21,431 nt of DNA from a virus. A model generated the notes under the pieces. It was not told where the DNA came from. It ran no database searches and worked only from the letters and a program-made list of their open reading frames with translations. Each line of letters begins with the position of its first letter. Within the stretch, counting starts at the first letter, position 1. Below, in pieces: positions 3,723-14,561 of this stretch. Location: IMG/VR virus record IMGVR_UViG_3300018815_000406, positions 1 through 21,431 of that record; one strand, 5' to 3'. The translations under genes and the position numbers were made by a program.

Positions 3723-5348
3723 TTACTGCGTCACGCTCGAGTAGGAGCACGACTTGACCTGGCCGCGTGCCGGGTCGCCGAACACGGCGTTGGTGCAGGC
3801 CACCGGACCGGTCACGACCTTCGAGGTGTAGATCGTGCTGGTGCCGTAGCGGACTTCACGCTTGCCGGTGAACGAGCAGGTGCCGTTCTCGCTGGCGCAG
3901 GCCGTGAAGGTCGGCGTGCTGGTGTCCGTGGTCGTCGTGCCCGTGCCGGCGTAGCTGCACGACTTGGCAACGCCGCGGATCGGATCGCCGAAGACGGCGG
4001 TCGTGCACGGGGTCGAGGCGGTGATCATCTTCGACGTGAACACACCGTTCGCGCCGAAGCGGACTTCACGGGTGCCGCTGAACGAGCAGGTCCCACCTTC
4101 GCTGGCGCAGCCCGTCCAGGACGTCGTCGTCGTCGTCGGTGCGGTCAGCGATTCGTACGCGCCGATGTCGATCTGGCCGACCACCGGACGTGCTTCGCCG
4201 GCGGCGACATGCTTGTATTGCGCAACAGCCTTCAGCGACACGCCCTTGGCCGACACGCCCGGATCCGAGCCGGCATCGATCACCAGCGCGCTGCCGACCG
4301 GATGCAGGTCGTACGCGGCGCGGTTTGCGAAACTCGGCGAGGCCGAACGGTAGTTCGTCTTGTCGACCGTCGATGCCTGGGTGCTGAACGTACCCACGCC
4401 GGCATAGATGTTGTTCTGTGCAATCGCCGGGGTCGGCACCTTGCCGCTGACAAACATGAACGTACCGCCGCTGCCCATATCGTTCAGGAACGTATTGTTG
4501 ATCACGTACAGGTCGCTGCCGGCGTTCACGGCACCTTCTTCACCGTAAGCCAGCATCGCCGAGTTCGAGTTCGATGCCGGTTGCTGGATGATGTTACCGA
4601 TGACGTAGGACGTACCGGCGTTCGGCAGGTCGATCTCGTACGACGGCTTGCCGGCCGCGGTGCTGCCCGTCTCGCCCGGGTTCAGGCTCGAGAAGCGGTT
4701 GTACGCGATCAGGTTGGTATCCGCACGCGACTTCAGGTTGTGGCCGACGTTGGCGTCGTGCGAGAAGTTGTAACGGAAAGTCAGGCTCTTCACGTGACCG
4801 ATGTACAGGTTGTGCGACTGGCCGTCGCCTGCGCCGTTGTGGCCGAATTCGGTGTTCTCGATCACCACGTCGCTGTTCGCGTTGGCGTTCGCCAGGATAC
4901 CGTTCTGGTTGTCGTGGAGGAAGGAGTTACGCAGCGTGAAACCGGCCGCTTCGAGGCGGAAGGCAGCGCCGTTCGCGTCGGGCACTTTGGCGCCGTACAT
5001 TTCGACGTTGTCCACGGTCAGGTTGGCACCGTCGACGACCCAGATGCCTTTGCCGCCGGCGTTCTTGCCGGCCGCATCGATCTTCGGACGGCCGTTCACG
5101 CCGCGGATGGTCAGGTTGTTACGCATGATGTAGCAGACGTCGCCGCTATACGTGGTGTTGCCGGTGATTTCGATGACGTCGCCATCGGCGGCGGCGGCGA
5201 TCGCAGCGCACGGCTTGGCGTAGGTCTTGCCCGGGCCAACCGACAGCGTGGCTGCGGATGCAGCGGATACACCTGCGAACGCCATCAGGACGGCAGCAGC
5301 CAGGTGCGAAGCGGAGAATTGGGTGTTGCGCGATGCGGTTTGTTGCAT
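3723..5348 (-). CDS. Secreted right-handed beta-helix protein with two C-terminal four-cysteine modules
   Basis: 541 residues. A signal peptide is followed by SAASA|ATLSVGPGKTY, with cleavage expected near residue 32. Residues about 35-390 show the rungs of a right-handed parallel beta-helix (repeated N-x-x-I/F-x-x-N turns such as NNLTIRGVNG, NLTVDNVEMYG, GFTLRNSFLHDN), a fold common in polysaccharide lyases and other glycan-active proteins. The most family-specific part is GQSHNLYIGHVKSLTFRYN followed by SHDANVGHNLKSRA. After a Thr-rich linker come two modules (about 411-468 and 481-541) of the form CxxE...C-F-x-G-x-REVR-(F/Y)G...C...FGDP...K-x-C-x-Y with four Cys each, likely disulphide-bonded and outside the cell. 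A paralogue with three modules follows upstream and another with none beyond it. GAGGAC lies just before the ATG. Catalytic residues and substrate cannot be named; a carbohydrate-binding role for the modules is a guess. Confidence 0.85.
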   Translation of the reverse strand: MQQTASRNTQFSASHLAAAVLMAFAGVSAASAATLSVGPGKTYAKPCAAIAAAADGDVIEITGNTTYSGDVCYIMRNNLTIRGVNGRPKIDAAGKNAGGKGIWVVDGANLTVDNVEMYGAKVPDANGAAFRLEAAGFTLRNSFLHDNQNGILANANANSDVVIENTEFGHNGAGDGQSHNLYIGHVKSLTFRYNFSHDANVGHNLKSRADTNLIAYNRFSSLNPGETGSTAAGKPSYEIDLPNAGTSYVIGNIIQQPASNSNSAMLAYGEEGAVNAGSDLYVINNTFLNDMGSGGTFMFVSGKVPTPAIAQNNIYAGVGTFSTQASTVDKTNYRSASPSFANRAAYDLHPVGSALVIDAGSDPGVSAKGVSLKAVAQYKHVAAGEARPVVGQIDIGAYESLTAPTTTTTSWTGCASEGGTCSFSGTREVRFGANGVFTSKMITASTPCTTAVFGDPIRGVAKSCSYAGTGTTTTDTSTPTFTACASENGTCSFTGKREVRYGTSTIYTSKVVTGPVACTNAVFGDPARGQVKSCSYSSVTQ

Positions 5349-5400
5349 GTCGATGTCCTCGTAAGCGATTGCCTGTCAGCAGTTGTGCCTGCTGGAAAGT

Positions 5401-5446
5401 TGCAGAATACGAGGTTTGAGATCGACGGTTTGTAACGAAGTGTAAC
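5401..5446 (-). promoter_or_regulatory. Conserved promoter/operator block of the 3723-5348 gene
   Basis: Read on the reverse strand this holds GTTACA-N4-GTTACA, then 21 bases, then TATTCT as a possible -10 element, about 50 bases before the start codon. The same block, in the same order and with identical spacing, stands before the paralogue at 6299-8140 (8190-8235), while the 11 bases between the parts differ. Six-base direct repeats one helical turn apart are typical sites for OmpR/PhoB-type response regulators. The regulator itself is not in this window. Confidence 0.62.
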
Positions 5447-5448
5447 CA

Positions 5449-5905
5449 AAAATAACGGAACAGCAATCATGAAAAAAGGCTAATTAATGTTCCTTTTAGC
5501 CTAATTCAGTAGAGTGAAAGATCATTTTCTAAGCACTTTTTCTAGCATACGGAACAACAAAAGGGACGTTTGAAACCCACTTTTTCGAGTTTTTCCCTAT
5601 GGAATTTAATTTCCGGTGGAAAATTTATCGACAGAGCAAAAATGGCAACGCTTATGTCTCTCTGTTAAGAGTCTGGTTGGCGCCTGTTGTCGAAATGATT
5701 TCGAAAAAAAATTCTCAAAATCAAGCCGATGTTGCGCTCACGCTGCACTTTTTTCTGAGAAAAATTGGTGCCGGTGAACAACATCTCCGGGAAATGTACA
5801 GAAAAAGTTCAGGTCTGGAAACTATTTTTCGAGAAAATGTTAGTTTAGGAGTAATTGCGGACAATTAATGCCGCTTTCGCGCCACAAAATGTGGGCTCAT
5901 ACAAC
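5449..5905. other. A+T-rich non-coding stretch upstream of the first beta-helix gene
   Basis: About 450 bases visibly richer in A+T than the neighbouring genes. No convincing gene is seen: an 89-codon open frame at 5599-5868 has no ribosome binding site and no recognisable motif. At 5471-5502, read on the reverse strand, AGGCTAA and TTAGCCT form a 7-bp stem followed by six T, a weak terminator-like hairpin. It would stop transcripts coming from the direction of the transposase remnant before they enter the beta-helix promoter. Confidence 0.5.
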
Positions 5906-5913
5906 ACGGTACG

Positions 5914-6161
5914 GGTGCCCGTCAACACGTTGTGACTGCGACGGCAGCCGAGACTGCGGAAGCGCTGCAGTCCACTAGCCTGGACTGGCCGCAGCTGCAG
6001 TGCGGACACGGCCGTACTGCCGCCGCCTGTTCGATGAGCGCGATGCACTCGGCGGGGGGCGCCATGCTCGCGATCCATTCTCGCAGCCGGGCCACGGCGG
6101 CGGCAGACAACGCGGCCGCCGGCAACATGGCGAACAATTCGACGAACGACAGGCTGCGCAT
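5914..6161 (-). pseudogene. Remnant of an IS1595-family transposase (N-terminal zinc ribbon), frameshifted and truncated
   Basis: The start is intact: GAGGAG at 6167-6172, then ATG at 6161-6159, opening MRSLSFVELFAMLPAAALSA and reaching CPHC (codons at 5997-6008). In the IS1595/ISXO2-type transposases known to me, CPHC is followed by about eight residues and then a G-x-A-x-GLQR-(F/Y)-RC...F-N-ALTGT run. Here the matching ASGLQRFR...CRRSHNVLTGT is found only in a different frame, from about 5972 down to 5914, so about 13 bases appear to be lost between the two parts. The second Cys pair is also damaged (RSLGC). Similarity ends at LTGT; the DDE catalytic part is absent. The element cannot move. 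The assignment rests on remembered family patterns, not on a search. Confidence 0.68.
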
Positions 6162-6244
6162 CGTCACTCCTCATGAGTCAACTCGACGATGCAGAGGACC
6201 TCTGCAACGAATTGAAGTGCACATGACTACCGCGAACACGGCCA

Positions 6245-6275
6245 TAAAAAAACGCGGCACGAGGCCGCGTTTTTC
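6245..6275 (-). terminator. Terminator of the 6299-8140 gene
   Basis: ACGCGGC and GCCGCGT form a 7-bp G+C-rich stem with a 5-base loop, flanked by A and T runs on both sides. It stands 24 bases after the reverse-strand stop codon. The flanks would allow it to work in both directions. Confidence 0.85.
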
Positions 6276-6298
6276 GGACGGGAAGAGCTCCCGAAGAA

Positions 6299-8140
6299 TT
6301 ACTTGTAGCTGCAGGACTTGGTTTGCCTGTACGCCGGATCACCAAAGACTGCATTCGTGCAGGCAACCGGACCGGTCACAGTCTTGGTCGTGTACATGCC
6401 GTTGGCACCATAACGGACCTGATGCGTACCCGTTACCGAGCAGACACCGCCTTCAACCGCGCACGCTGTCCAGCCCGCGTCGGACGGAGCCGGTGCCGTA
6501 GGTGCCGGCGTCGGCGTCGAACCCGACGTCGCAATCGTGTTGCTGTTGTAGCTGCAATTCTTCAGCACGCCCTTGGCCGGGTCGCTGCCGAACGATTTGG
6601 GCCAGCAGATGACGGTACCGGTGAAGGTCTTGGTCACATACGACGTACCGGCGCCGAAACGGACTTCGCGGGTGCCGGTGAAGATGCAGGGGCTGTTCTC
6701 GCCGGCGCAGGGAATCCACGCCGGGGCGGCGGCCGCGGTCGAGGTCGATACCGTGCTGGAATAGCTGCACGTCTTGGCGACGCCGCGGATCGGATCGCCG
6801 AACACGGCACTGGTACACGGAGTCGAGCCGGTGACCATTTTGGTCGTATAGGTGCCGTTGGCGCCGTAGCGGACTTCTCGGGTACCGCTGAACGAGCAGG
6901 TCGAATTTTCGTTACCGCATGCGGTCCAGGTGACGGCCGCGACGTTCGCGGCATCGCCCGTCGCTTCGTACGCGCCGATGTCCAGCTGGCCCACTACCGG
7001 ACGTGCTTCGCCGGATGCATTGCCTTTATATTGTGCGACCGGAACCAGCGAGACGCCCTTGGCCGACACACCCGGATCCGTAGCGGCATTGATCACCAGT
7101 GCACTGCCGGTCGGGTGCAGATCCCATTTGGCACGGTCGACGAAGCCCGGCGATACCGAACGGTAGTTGGACTTCAGGATCGAGCTGGCCTGGGTGCTGA
7201 GGGTACCGATGCCGCTGAAAATGTTGTTCTGAATCACCGCCGGCGTCGGAACCCTGCCGCTGACAAACAGGAACGTGCCATCACCGTAGTCATTCAGGAA
7301 CGTGTTGTTGATGACGTACAGGTCGCTGCCGGCGTTGACCGCGCCTTCTTCGCCATAGGCCACCATACCCGGGTTCTGGTTGGCAGCCGGTTGCTCGATG
7401 ATATTGCCGATGATGTAGGAGGTACCGGCATTCGGCAGGTCGATTTCGTACGACGGCTGGCCGGACGCGGTGCTGCCCGTCTCGCCCGGCGCCGTGCTCG
7501 AGAAGCGGCTGTACGCGATCATGTTCGTATCGGCACGCGACTTCAGGTTGTGACCGACGTTCGCATCGTGCGAATAGTTGTAGCGGAACGTGAGGCTCTT
7601 CACGTGGCCGATATACAGGTTGTGCGACTGTCCGTCGCCAAAGCCGTTGTGACCGAACTCGGTGTACTCGATCAGGATGTCGCTATTGACGTTGGGATTC
7701 GCCAGGATGCCGTTTTCGTTGTCGTGAATGAACGAATTACGCAACGTGAAACCCGTGCCCTGCAGGCGCATAGCGGCGCCGTTGGCATCGAGTACCGTCG
7801 CGCCATACATTTCGACGTTATCGACCGTCAGGTTGTTACCGTTGACGACCCAGATACCCTTGCCGCCGGCATTCTTGCCGGCCGCGTCGATCTTCGGACG
7901 GCCATTGACACCGCGGATGGTCAGGTTGTGGCGGTTGATGTTGCAGACGTCGCGGCTATAAGTGGTGTTGCCGGCGATTTCGATGACGTCGCCATCCTTG
8001 GCAACGGCGATGGCGGCGCAGGGTTTCGCATAGGTTTTGCCCGGGCCGACCGACAGGGTGGCTGCGGACGCGGAGGTCACACCCGCGCAGGCCATCAGAA
8101 TGGTGGCAGCCAGGAGTGATTGGTTACGCAAAGTGTGCAT
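6299..8140 (-). CDS. Secreted right-handed beta-helix protein with three C-terminal four-cysteine modules
   Basis: 613 residues from ATG at 8140-8138. The frame stays open to 8248, but this start is chosen because ACGAGGACTCTC precedes it, it begins a normal signal peptide (MHTLRNQSLLAATILMACAG, cleavage near residue 26) and the conserved promoter block lies upstream of it. The beta-helix part (about 27-385) is closely alike to the 3723-5348 product, including GQSHNLYIGHVKSLTFRYN and the YGEEGA segment. Three four-Cys modules follow at about 405-462, 475-532 and 557-613; the middle one deviates (ICWPKSFGSDP instead of ACTNAVFGDP). The linker before the last is Pro/Thr/Ala-rich, as between domains of secreted enzymes. 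It most likely acts on or binds a polysaccharide outside the cell; this is inference from fold and architecture. It is a tandem paralogue with its own promoter and terminator. Confidence 0.85.
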   Translation of the reverse strand: MHTLRNQSLLAATILMACAGVTSASAATLSVGPGKTYAKPCAAIAVAKDGDVIEIAGNTTYSRDVCNINRHNLTIRGVNGRPKIDAAGKNAGGKGIWVVNGNNLTVDNVEMYGATVLDANGAAMRLQGTGFTLRNSFIHDNENGILANPNVNSDILIEYTEFGHNGFGDGQSHNLYIGHVKSLTFRYNYSHDANVGHNLKSRADTNMIAYSRFSSTAPGETGSTASGQPSYEIDLPNAGTSYIIGNIIEQPAANQNPGMVAYGEEGAVNAGSDLYVINNTFLNDYGDGTFLFVSGRVPTPAVIQNNIFSGIGTLSTQASSILKSNYRSVSPGFVDRAKWDLHPTGSALVINAATDPGVSAKGVSLVPVAQYKGNASGEARPVVGQLDIGAYEATGDAANVAAVTWTACGNENSTCSFSGTREVRYGANGTYTTKMVTGSTPCTSAVFGDPIRGVAKTCSYSSTVSTSTAAAAPAWIPCAGENSPCIFTGTREVRFGAGTSYVTKTFTGTVICWPKSFGSDPAKGVLKNCSYNSNTIATSGSTPTPAPTAPAPSDAGWTACAVEGGVCSVTGTHQVRYGANGMYTTKTVTGPVACTNAVFGDPAYRQTKSCSYK

Positions 8141-8189
8141 GAGAGTCCTCGTAAAGTTTCTGTGCGGGAAGTAATTCCCAAGGGCAAGA

Positions 8190-8235
8190 TGCAGAATACG
8201 AGGTTTCCCACCCGTGCTTTGTAACGGCATGTAAC
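8190..8235 (-). promoter_or_regulatory. Conserved promoter/operator block of the 6299-8140 gene
   Basis: This block is identical in layout to the one at 5401-5446: a shared 17-base part (TGCAGAATACGAGGTTT on the given strand, holding the possible -10 as its complement TATTCT), 11 unrelated bases, then TTTGTAACG-N3-TGTAAC. Distance to the start codon is 49 bases. Confidence 0.62.
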
Positions 8236-8560: not shown

Positions 8561-9718
8561 TCAGCGGCTGGCGGCGTTGTCCCCGCGGGCTTTCGATACG
8601 GCGTCTTTCAGGTCGGCGCCGCTCGTCCACGGGTCCGCTGGCGGCCCCGCCTTCAACACGATGTCATTCACCAGTGGCCGCAACGTGAGACCGGCACGGT
8701 CGATAAAACCCGGCTTTTCCAGGCGGCGGTTGTCTTTCTGGATGGCGCCGGCTTGCGTGCTCACGGTGCCGGGACCGGCAAAAACATTGTTCTGGATCAG
8801 GGCAGGGGTCGACACCTTGCCGCTGATGAACAGGAACGTGCCGCTGTTGAAGTCATTCAGGAAGGTGTTATTGATGACATACAGATCCTGGCCGGGATTC
8901 GTCGCCCCTTCTTCGCCGTAGGCCACGATGTTCGGATTGTCGTTGATGGCCGGCTGTTCGATCACGTTGCCGATGAGGTAGGACGTACCGGCGCTCGGCA
9001 GGTCGATTTCGTACGAGGGCTTGCCGCTCGCTGTACTGCCGGGCTTGCCCGGGGGCGTGCTCGAGAAGCGGTTGTACGCGATCATGTTGAACATGGCGCG
9101 CGACTTGAGGTTGTGCCCGATGTTCGCGTCGTGCGAATAGTTGTAGCGGAAAGTCAGGCTTTTGACGTTACCGATGTAGAGATTGTGCGTCTGGCCGTCG
9201 CCTCCGCCGTTGTGGCCGAATTCGCTGTGCTCGATCACGACATTGCTGTTGCGGTTCGCACCCATCAGGATGCCGTTCTCGTTGTCGTGGATAAAAGCCT
9301 GGCGCAGCGTGAAATTCGTGCCTTCGAGACGGAGCGCCGCGCCATTGCGATCCCTGACTTTCGCGCCCAGCATCTCGACGTTCTCGACCGTGATGTTATT
9401 GCCCGTGACGACCCAGGTGCCCTTGTTGCCGAACTGTTGGCCGGCGGCGTCGATGACCGGACGGCCCTTTACGCCGCGGATGGTCAGGTTGCTGCGTGCG
9501 ATCGCACAGGTGTCGCCGTTGTAGGTCCAGTCGCCGACGATCTCGATGGTGTCGCCATCCTTGGCAGCTGCGAAGGCCGGGCACGGAGCGACAAAGGTCT
9601 TGCCCGGACCCACCGACAGCGTGGCCGCGCCTGCGGTGCCGGCCGCGGCCAGCAGTGTCGTTGCGAGTGCAAGGGAGGATACCGGCTTGCGGGTGACAGG
9701 GATGTACAACAGTGACAC
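8561..9718 (-). CDS. Secreted right-handed beta-helix protein, module-less paralogue
   Basis: 385 residues. The start is GTG at 9718-9716, supported by AAAAGGAATC seven bases before it and by a signal peptide (SSLALATTLLAAAGTAGA|ATLSVGPGKTF, cleavage near residue 31). The beta-helix body keeps the family marks: NNLTIRGVKG-like rungs, GQTHNLYIGNVKSLTFRYN, SHDANIGHNLKSRA and YGEEGA. It ends at about the place where the paralogues enter their linker, with a short charged tail and no four-Cys module. It is more diverged than the other two are from each other. Only 65 bases separate it from the cytochrome gene, and these hold that gene's terminator. The TGTAAC promoter block is missing, so it is either expressed by readthrough or from a promoter inside the cytochrome gene. 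Function is unproven, as for its paralogues. Confidence 0.82.
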   Translation of the reverse strand: MSLLYIPVTRKPVSSLALATTLLAAAGTAGAATLSVGPGKTFVAPCPAFAAAKDGDTIEIVGDWTYNGDTCAIARSNLTIRGVKGRPVIDAAGQQFGNKGTWVVTGNNITVENVEMLGAKVRDRNGAALRLEGTNFTLRQAFIHDNENGILMGANRNSNVVIEHSEFGHNGGGDGQTHNLYIGNVKSLTFRYNYSHDANIGHNLKSRAMFNMIAYNRFSSTPPGKPGSTASGKPSYEIDLPSAGTSYLIGNVIEQPAINDNPNIVAYGEEGATNPGQDLYVINNTFLNDFNSGTFLFISGKVSTPALIQNNVFAGPGTVSTQAGAIQKDNRRLEKPGFIDRAGLTLRPLVNDIVLKAGPPADPWTSGADLKDAVSKARGDNAASR

Positions 9719-10878: not shown

Positions 10879-10954
10879 GCGGCTGTAGCTCAGTGGATAG
10901 AGTATTGGCCTCCGAAGCCAAGGGTCGACAGTTCGATTCTGTCCAGCCGCGCCA
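10879..10954 (+). tRNA. tRNA-Arg, anticodon CCG
   Basis: A 76-base cloverleaf: acceptor GCGGCTG pairs with CAGCCGC, discriminator G and an encoded CCA follow. The D arm is GCTCAGTGGATAGAGT. The anticodon stem TTGGC/GCCAA has loop CTCCGAA, so the anticodon is CCG and reads CGG. The T arm is GACAG-TTCGATT-CTGTC. The gene is intact although a prophage integrase stands right behind it, as expected when integration uses the tRNA 3' end and restores it. Confidence 0.96.
10934..10954 (+). other. Probable prophage attachment site core (tRNA-Arg 3' end)
   Basis: The integrase gene begins 125 bases after the tRNA and points away from it. This is the usual layout of elements that recombine into a tRNA 3' end. 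The core should be the T-arm to CCA end of the tRNA. Its exact length can be fixed only with the second copy at the other prophage end, which is outside the window. Confidence 0.55.
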
Positions 10955-11078: not shown

Positions 11079-12302
11079 ATGAAGGTCAAGCATAGCGGTA
11101 CAGTTGAGCGCAACATCTATGTCGAAGGTCGCAGTGGCTCGCTGCGGTTCACCGTCGAAGTCTCTCCCTTTCCTAAAGACCATCTCACCGTCGACCTCGA
11201 CCAGTACGATAAAGGTCTCAATTGGGCTCGCCGTCGCCGCGTCGAGCTGCTCGAGCAAAAGTCTAGCCGGAAGCCAGAGCAACCGCCCTCGGGACCAGTA
11301 ATCGAGCCCGGTTGGCATCCCTCTAGCATCTGCATTAGCGACGTGCTCGAGAACTACCGCATCCGGGAGCTACCGAAGCTTGCTGGCGCTGCATCCGATA
11401 AATCAAGGCTCAAGCGTCTGGAAGAATGGTTCGGCTGCTATACGCTCGGCCAGCTCAGCTATGACGTCCTCGAGACCTGGAAAGACGAGCGCCAAGCCGG
11501 CAAGCTTGGGTCAGGCCGTGTCTCAGACCCGACGCTGACGAAGCAGCAACGGTACAAGCTAAGGCGTGCCGGCCAGCCTCTGCCACCTACTGTCATCAAA
11601 CCGGTTGCATCGCAAACAGTTCGACATGAGCTCGTACTGTTTCGCCGCGCGTTGACGGCGTATTTCCGCGCTCACAGCCTTATGCATCTCCACGGCGCGT
11701 GGCTGGCCTCCCAGCACATCATGGATATGCCCCTGCCTGAGAAATCAGACGCACGGGAAGTCCGCGTCGACGATGACGGCCTTGCAGCCTTGGTGCGCGA
11801 ACTAGATGACCCGCAGCTGCAAGCGTTCGTGCGTCTGGCTGTCATGACTACGCTTCGGCGAAGCGAGGTTTGTTCGCTGCGCTGGGAGGATGTTGATTTC
11901 GACAAGAAAATCATGGGACTGCGGGCGCCTGGTCATCGCAAGAAGACGAAGACGCATGGGCGTCAAATCCCACTTTTGCCCCCAGCTATCGCGATTCTGC
12001 GCAAGCTTGGGCCGAAAGAGAGTGGAAAAATCTTCCAAATCACGCCAAGCGGTATCAGCCAAGCCCTGCGTAGGTGCGCTGACCGCGCCGGCCTGACCGA
12101 CCTTCGCTTGCACGACCTACGCCGCGAGGGCATCTCTCGCTTAGTCGAACTGCTCCAGGTGCCTCTGGCAACTGTTACAGTGTTTTCTGGCCACAGTGAC
12201 CAAGCTGTCCTCCAAAAACATTACTTGAAGCAGCGTTCGACCATCATTGCTGAACAGCTCACGGCCCATCCTGGAGCGGCTACCATGATTGCAAGTGCAT
12301 GA
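11079..12302 (+). CDS. int: Phage tyrosine recombinase (integrase)
   Basis: 407 residues. Residues 1-75 form a basic N-terminal part. About 80-210 is a SAM-like core-binding domain. The catalytic domain runs from about 225 and shows the full set: Arg260 in TTLRRSEVCSLRW, a Lys in the KKTKTHGRQIPL strand (about 288-292), His345 and Arg348 in LHDLRREGISR, His372 in FSGHSD and the nucleophile Tyr382 in KHYLKQ. It should catalyse integration into and, with an excisionase, excision from the tRNA-Arg site just upstream. AGGAG lies seven bases before the ATG. The stop overlaps the start of the next gene (ATGA). The N-terminal stretch is longer than in minimal integrases and presumably reads the arm sites. 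All catalytic residues are present, so it looks active. Confidence 0.95.
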   Translation: MKVKHSGTVERNIYVEGRSGSLRFTVEVSPFPKDHLTVDLDQYDKGLNWARRRRVELLEQKSSRKPEQPPSGPVIEPGWHPSSICISDVLENYRIRELPKLAGAASDKSRLKRLEEWFGCYTLGQLSYDVLETWKDERQAGKLGSGRVSDPTLTKQQRYKLRRAGQPLPPTVIKPVASQTVRHELVLFRRALTAYFRAHSLMHLHGAWLASQHIMDMPLPEKSDAREVRVDDDGLAALVRELDDPQLQAFVRLAVMTTLRRSEVCSLRWEDVDFDKKIMGLRAPGHRKKTKTHGRQIPLLPPAIAILRKLGPKESGKIFQITPSGISQALRRCADRAGLTDLRLHDLRREGISRLVELLQVPLATVTVFSGHSDQAVLQKHYLKQRSTIIAEQLTAHPGAATMIASA

Positions 12303-13454: not shown

Positions 13455-13530
13455 CTGCTATACCTGCCAGGTTGGCATCCGCCCCGCGCTAGCGGGGCTT
13501 CCTTCTACAAGGCGCGCATGCCCGCGCGCG
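13455..13530 (-). ncRNA. Putative omega RNA scaffold at the 3' end of tnpB
   Basis: Read on the reverse strand, three hairpins follow each other over the last 25 codons and the stop of tnpB: GCGCGC/GCGCGC (13512-13529, 6-base loop), GCCCCGC/GCGGGGC with a 4-base loop (13481-13498), and ACCT/AGGT (13462-13472). TnpB guide RNAs are known to be processed from this place, with the guide taken from sequence beyond the element end. Here that would be within the 3' part of the 91-residue gene, in antisense. Extent and processing are inferred. Confidence 0.42.
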
Positions 13531-14561
13531 AGAATGTTCGTTGCGGCGTTGACGTCTCTTTCATGGCGCATTCCGCAGTCTGGACAGACCCACTCTCTTA
13601 TTCCGAGTCCTGCCAGGCCTTGCGGACCACTACAGCTTCCGCAGCCTGAGCATGCTCGGGTTGTGTATTTTTCGTCTACTACTTCGAACCGCGCGCCGGC
13701 GAAATCGCACTTGTACTGCAACATGGTTCGTAATGCACTCCAGCCAGCATTGCTCACAGCCTTTGCCAACCGGGTTTTCTGCAGCTTCGAGGCATCTACA
13801 TCGCCCACATAAATCTCACCGTACCTTCGCACTAAGTCTGAACTGATTTTGTGCAGGTAGTCCCGCCGCTGGTTCGACGCCTTCGCGTTGAGCGCTCGAG
13901 TGCGGTCCTTCTTCCGTGCCCGCTGCGCCACGGCCAACTTTGGCTCAATCGCTTGGTAGAACCGCCTGATTTCAATGCTCTCACCATTCGACAGCACCGC
14001 CAAATCTTTCAGCCCAAGGTCGATGCCGATTGCCTCGCGAGCTTCCATAGCTTTGCTAGCAACATAGGGCAGTCTGACGCAAAGATTGGCGTACCACCGG
14101 CCGCGTGCGTCCTCCGAGACATTCCCGCCGTGGATGTCGTAGTTCGACAGGCCATAGCTGTCCCACACGCCAACAGGGCCTTCCACGCCGGCCAGGAAAA
14201 GCTTGCCCGCCCGAACGCGCACTCCCTTCGTTTTGTAGGGAATCCAGCCCAGACTGCGGCGCCGGCCAGCGGATACGCGCCAACGCAGTTTGGTCTTCTT
14301 CGCGTGGTAGCGCCGGCGAATGTACTCTTCGTAGACACCTTGGATGCTGTGGCTGTGCAGCTTCATGCCGGCTTTCCCGGCGCCGCGGACGTACGGCTGC
14401 ACATCGAATGCAGTCATGAACCGCCGCTCTCGCTCGAGCACTCGAAGGGCTAACTCCTGGGTGTAGTTCCATACCAGGTTCACTTCCTCAGACAGCTCAC
14501 GCAGCTGTTTAGCGTGGCGGTCTTTGATGCGAACGCGGAGAACTCGAGTCGTGTATTCCAA
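13458..14561 (-). CDS. tnpB: TnpB family RNA-guided nuclease (IS200/IS605 OrfB, IS1341-like)
   Basis: 367 residues from TTG at 14561-14559. An N-terminal wedge/REC-like part (1-170) is followed by a RuvC-like nuclease: Asp181 in IGIDLGLKDLAVLS, a bridge-type basic helix (about 205-240), the RuvC-II strand EIYVGDVDASKL, a zinc ribbon with Cys304/Cys307 and Cys326/Cys329, and Asp336 in RDVNAATNIL. At the usual place of the second catalytic acid (V-E-D/N-L) this protein has Gly253; Glu297 in VVDEKYTTRACSGCG is a candidate replacement, as in other proteins of this subgroup (VGDVSSSKL type). TnpB cuts DNA with an omega RNA made from the 3' end of its own gene. Length is normal and no frameshift is seen. 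The weak ribosome binding site and TTG start are the least certain points. Confidence 0.9.
   Translation of the reverse strand: MEYTTRVLRVRIKDRHAKQLRELSEEVNLVWNYTQELALRVLERERRFMTAFDVQPYVRGAGKAGMKLHSHSIQGVYEEYIRRRYHAKKTKLRWRVSAGRRRSLGWIPYKTKGVRVRAGKLFLAGVEGPVGVWDSYGLSNYDIHGGNVSEDARGRWYANLCVRLPYVASKAMEAREAIGIDLGLKDLAVLSNGESIEIRRFYQAIEPKLAVAQRARKKDRTRALNAKASNQRRDYLHKISSDLVRRYGEIYVGDVDASKLQKTRLAKAVSNAGWSALRTMLQYKCDFAGARFEVVDEKYTTRACSGCGSCSGPQGLAGLGIREWVCPDCGMRHERDVNAATNILARGHARLVEGSPASAGRMPTWQV

Follow-up and report, generated by a model that had tools for sequence, protein, structure and literature searches.

Two descriptions of the binding site of enterobacterial OmpR, the Escherichia coli motif GTTACAnnnnGTTACA (PMC7315122) and the repeat known from ChIP-exo, GTTACATTTTGTTACAT (PMC5438342), share two hexamers set at a 10-base period, and in enterobacteria this box precedes porin genes. 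The box of another regulator of the family, RstA, has been described as TACA-N6-TACA (PMC4117788). Here, the same two hexamers with the same period were identified upstream of two tandem genes for predicted beta-helix proteins (genes 1 and 2) in a 21,431-nucleotide stretch of the IMG/VR virus record IMGVR_UViG_3300018815_000406 (hereafter, the window), where the closest relatives of gene 1 were those of Massilia (93-95% identity; Massilia sp. PDC64, M. kyonggiensis, and Massilia sp. Root133). Unlike the enterobacterial OmpR box, the predicted Massilia box is single, occupies the -35 position itself with 21 bases between it and the -10 element, and precedes genes for beta-helix proteins instead of porins. 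It contains the RstA core TACA-N6-TACA, yet conservation in the Massilia box extends to the GT with which the first half-site begins. With a probability of roughly two in three, we read the two sites as activator-dependent sigma-70 promoters that would be bound by an OmpR-family regulator, most likely the envelope-stress regulator OmpR, and would co-express both beta-helix genes under an EnvZ/OmpR signal. As judged from their sequences, the conserved promoters would be a case of OmpR-type control, a known kind of gene control.

The promoter blocks of genes 1 and 2

Read toward the genes, both sites have the order GTTACA-N4-GTTACA-N21-TATTCT-GCA (full sequences, GTTACACTTCGTTACAAACCGTCGATCTCAAACCTCGTATTCTGCA and GTTACATGCCGTTACAAAGCACGGGTGGGAAACCTCGTATTCTGCA; Table 1); these are the 46-base blocks of constant spacing that an earlier note on this DNA had located, and both were present as described. 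The blocks were identical at 35/46 positions (76%), whereas their flanks agreed at 17/50 positions just upstream and 21/50 just downstream (34-42%). When 46-base segments of the two intergenic regions were compared without gaps, no pair matched better than the block, and outside this register the highest count was 27/46. The intergenic regions were thus not uniformly conserved, in agreement with the earlier view of an isolated conserved block within changed DNA. The 11 bases that the earlier note had called variable do vary between the two paralogues but were nearly invariant among gene-1 orthologues (CGTCGATCT), so that the core appears isolated only when the paralogues are compared. No further copy of GTTACA-N4-GTTACA occurred within the window, and each of nine Massilia/Telluria genomes (5.5-7.5 Mb) had between one and three copies of the repeat (reversed-pattern control, one match in ten genomes).

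Since genes 1 and 2 are tandem paralogues, the block might be a functionless remnant of gene duplication. The divergence of the flanks relative to the block argues against this, as does the retention of the block architecture before orthologues of other and distant species, and on these two grounds a remnant of recent duplication was ruled out; we regard any such origin of the conservation as highly improbable.

No usable -35 hexamer was present 17 bases from TATTCT, and a promoter scan returned no minus-strand site at the block. With transcription assumed to begin about seven bases past TATTCT, the box would fall at about -49 to -34, where it would replace the -35 element. In the mechanism that we propose, each block would form the central part of a sigma-70 promoter that lacks a -35 element and depends on an activator: two phosphorylated OmpR-family molecules, most likely OmpR itself, would bind GTTACA-N4-GTTACA head to tail, and the bound OmpR~P would stand in for the missing -35 and bring RNA polymerase to the -10 element TATTCT, whereby both tandem paralogues would be expressed together under the EnvZ/OmpR signal. 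Because an OmpR-type promoter is common to both, genes 1 and 2 are probably switched on together. We infer binding, start site, and signal, as well as activation rather than repression. A regulator of this type could also act as a repressor by covering the -35 region and blocking polymerase, and the overlap of the box with that region, as positioned from the sequence, would fit repression too. However, there is no usable -35 element for a repressor to block, and the fixed distance from box to -10 is as expected of an activator; repression therefore seems unlikely to us. The activator reading does leave something over: AAAC(C/A)TCG, directly 5' of TATTCT, was conserved in closer relatives to a degree that a simple -10 element would not require, and this counts against the OmpR activator model.

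Genes 1 and 2 also have a common ribosome-binding region, TTACGAGGAC. In both window genes, CCTCGTA of the block shows exact 7-base complementarity to TACGAGG of that region, and pairing of the two in the mRNA could hide the ribosome-binding region, a form of translational control. This complement was, however, lost without compensation in orthologues (AAAACTCGTA in L009 and L012, CACGAGG in L010, and AAACATCGTA with TTTACAGGA in L156 and L158), and the likely start site is downstream of CCTCGTA. With the pairing broken uncompensated in several orthologues, the masking hairpin is not retained; it was dropped for want of covariation, and we give translational control of this kind very little credence. 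Short predicted stem-loops of differing sequence were found in the 5' leaders of many orthologues (mean z, -1.46, versus -0.44 in an upstream control) and were noted for the leaders of genes 1 and 2. Some 150 bases upstream of the box of gene 1, another conserved block was seen, GGAAATTAAATTCCATAGGGAAAAA, which hardly varied among 11 orthologues and has a less exact equivalent at gene 2, TTTCATAGTGAGAA.

Table 1. Positions of features in the window (numbering from its first letter)
Feature	Position	Strand	Basis or remark
Gene 1, predicted secreted right-handed beta-helix protein, 541 aa, two C-terminal Cys-containing repeats	3723..5348	-	
Ribosome-binding region, gene 1	5355..5364	-	sequence, alignment
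Predicted 5' leader hairpin CAGCAG...CTGCTG, gene 1	5377..5394	-	z about -2.3, weak evidence
46-base block, gene 1	5446-5401	-	
-10-like hexamer TATTCT, gene 1, 21 bases after box	5404..5409	-	kept as TAnnnT in distant orthologues
AAAC(C/A)TCG, gene 1	5410-5417		
Downstream half-site GTTACA, gene 1 promoter, 10-base period	5431..5436	-	sequence
Upstream half-site GTTACA, gene 1 promoter	5441..5446	-	sequence
Second conserved block, gene 1	5590-5614	-	
Gene 2, paralogue, 613 aa, 74% identical to gene 1 over alignment, three C-terminal repeats	6299..8140	-	
Ribosome-binding region, gene 2	8145..8154	-	sequence
46-base block, gene 2	8235-8190	-	
-10-like hexamer TATTCT, gene 2	8193..8198	-	sequence
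AAAC(C/A)TCG, gene 2	8199-8206		
Downstream half-site GTTACA, gene 2 promoter	8220..8225	-	sequence
Upstream half-site GTTACA, gene 2 promoter	8230..8235	-	sequence
Gene 3, paralogue, 385 aa, without promoter block, without C-terminal repeats	8561..9718	-	
Prophage-like segment	10879-21431		
tRNA-Arg(CCG)	10879-10954		
Integrase gene	11079-12302		
TnpB-like gene	13458-14561		

Orthologous promoters in Massilia and beyond

The block was found before orthologues, picked by protein similarity alone, in 8 named Massilia/Telluria species (L008-L014 and L018). In 6/8 of these species it preceded both paralogues, and one site was seen in L013 and in L014. A genus-wide scan for the box followed by 21 bases and TATTCT, with two mismatches allowed, returned 29 sites in 21/62 genomes and none with the reversed pattern. 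Among the newly fetched scan sites that were inspected, 12/15 preceded genes of this beta-helix family (L161, one of these, was assigned to it from the frame start only), and three (L160, L163, and L166) did not. The earlier expectation of further copies before related secreted genes was thus borne out, with most sites of this strict scan preceding the beta-helix family.

The spacing was also kept at greater distance. For the spacing test, boxes of distant orthologues were chosen by best match without regard to the sequence that follows, upstream of the start codon and with at least 10/12 bases matching; the orthologues came from a family-wide protein search, together with L017 and other loci from a search for gene-1 relatives, and L171 (a gene-1 orthologue) and L192/L019 (where the match falls at the start codon) were left out. 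TAnnnT occurred exactly 21 bases after the box in 8/10 of these cases (L172, L173, L174, L175, L187, L194, L198, and L017); of the other two, L197 had TAnnnT at 22 bases and L176 had no TAnnnT. As L174 and L175 are near-identical, the test comprises about nine independent cases. A box at a fixed distance from the -10 element, as found here, is a mark of an OmpR-regulated promoter. Across 39 promoters, bases 2, 4, 5, and 6 of the first half-site and bases 2, 4, and 5 of the second were invariant, an invariance to which the selection of the sites contributed. A box could not be recognized in over half of the orthologues inspected across the family, which counts against the OmpR model and restricts box control to one branch of the family. 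The promoters would be a clear illustration of an OmpR-type box at a constant 21 bases from the -10 element, conserved in many species of one genus.

OmpR and its paralogues as candidate regulators

The direct repeat GTTACA-N4-GTTACA agrees with the motif by which OmpR promoters are recognized (PMC7315122); a literature search by the exact letters of the site gave no match. OmpR itself is encoded in these bacteria: the Massilia OmpR scored 421.9 bits against the NCBIfam OmpR equivalog NF007005 (cut-off, 331 bits), closely resembled the E. coli protein in an alignment across the DNA-binding helix region, and was 90-100% identical to the best matches in 10/10 related genomes, the window itself spanning only 21 kb. 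A related box was present upstream of ompR in all ten, reading ATTACA-N4-GTTACAAACTTTACC in nine and ATTACA-N4-GTTACATACTTTACC in Noviherbaspirillum. This ompR-type variant occurred in exactly one copy in each of the 62/62 genus genomes (control, 0); it lay just upstream of ompR in the 9 of these that were inspected and is assumed to do so in the others. The earlier note had proposed a regulator of the OmpR/PhoB type, and that class is upheld by the match to the published motif, the presence of OmpR, and the related box at its own promoter; within the class, these sites point to OmpR as the most likely regulator.

The main rival is another member of the OmpR family (RstA-like, CpxR-like, or specific to Massilia) bound to a promoter of the same anatomy, which we judge to be possible but considerably less probable than OmpR. 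The RstA box, TACATNTNGTTACA, is similar to that of OmpR, the two motifs overlap in E. coli, and several OmpR-family paralogues with similar helices are encoded in the same genomes; given TACA-N6-TACA as the RstA box, the motif alone cannot separate OmpR from RstA. The profile searches bear on this, as no protein in six genomes passed the cut-off of either equivalog: the best score for RstA was 226.5 bits (cut-off, 330), and that for CpxR was 226.4 bits (cut-off, 341). The CpxR consensus is GTAAA-N5-GTAAA, and the half-sites here read GTAAC rather than the CpxR-type GTAAA. One such paralogue is a homologue 47-48% identical to OmpR (L146-L154), with direct repeats ending in GATACAAAG on both sides of its gene, possibly that regulator's own box. 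The beta-helix sites (GTTACAAAC in gene 1) nevertheless look nearer to the ompR-promoter site, GTTACAAAC, than to the GATACAAAG sites.

Gene products, genomic setting, and other candidate targets

Neither gene 1 nor gene 2 matched any Pfam or NCBIfam family above the cut-off, PL6 and PL9 included. A structure predicted from 37 homologues (mean pLDDT, 87), which replaced an unusable three-sequence model (pLDDT, 42), was a right-handed parallel beta-helix, the fold of PL6 and PL9, a likeness that does not imply activity. Its best structural matches were mostly enzymes acting on polysaccharides (Pel9A, lacto-N-biosidases, PL6 lyases, and Vibrio RbmB), all with low TM-scores. The modelled products thus resemble in fold the parallel beta-helix polysaccharide lyases (Pel9A, PL6 alginate lyases, and Vibrio RbmB), and a weak profile match to AlyF-OU02 was also obtained; they differ from Pel9A, PL6, and RbmB in that the TM-score is at most 0.43 (by query length), the identity is 10-16%, and no Pfam family applies. 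Genes 1 and 2 are accordingly predicted, from the model, to encode polysaccharide-lyase-like beta-helix proteins, and an N-terminal signal-like sequence suggests that these are secreted. The promoters would suggest a likely control for this family of secreted beta-helix proteins, which is widespread and has no name.

The number of C-terminal Cys-containing repeats differs between the paralogues. Viral contigs (L001-L007) carried relatives of these repeats only (residues 405-536, 56-61% identity; window positions 3723-4133), and because the matches are confined to the C-terminal repeats, the viral contigs offered no promoters for comparison. Both blocks sit in the bacterial flank of the virus record; the prophage-like part starts downstream of tRNA-Arg(CCG), and that segment encodes, besides the integrase and the TnpB-like gene, an HAD_SAK_2 protein, a tail fibre, baseplate J, and baseplate V.

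Through these promoters, the EnvZ/OmpR regulon of Massilia and related bacteria, on which no paper was found in the literature library searched, becomes accessible to concrete tests. A two-mismatch scan of nine genomes returned 58 sites versus 18 control matches, and, as the earlier note had asked of copies elsewhere, a few envelope or surface genes were also preceded by the box. Several of the sites recurred from species to species. Candidate targets include the genes for a DUF535 protein, with three repeats (in 7 genomes), for a secreted protein of RTX/cadherin-like type (in 2 genomes), and for a VpsR-domain sigma-54 regulator, which had the exact repeat in 4 genomes but no -10 element at 21 bases. 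Related boxes before these genes and the beta-helix genes suggest, tentatively, that Massilia OmpR might control extracellular-matrix remodelling, with EnvZ/OmpR placed above a VpsR-like matrix circuit; we hold this wider reading to be conceivable, though rather doubtful. A further candidate, present in 9/9 genomes (L119, L126, and L131), is a membrane protein without a Pfam family, preceded by GATACA-N4-GTAACA-N21-TACTCT/TAAGCT. This membrane-protein site lies about 6 kb from a gene for an OmpR-like regulator.
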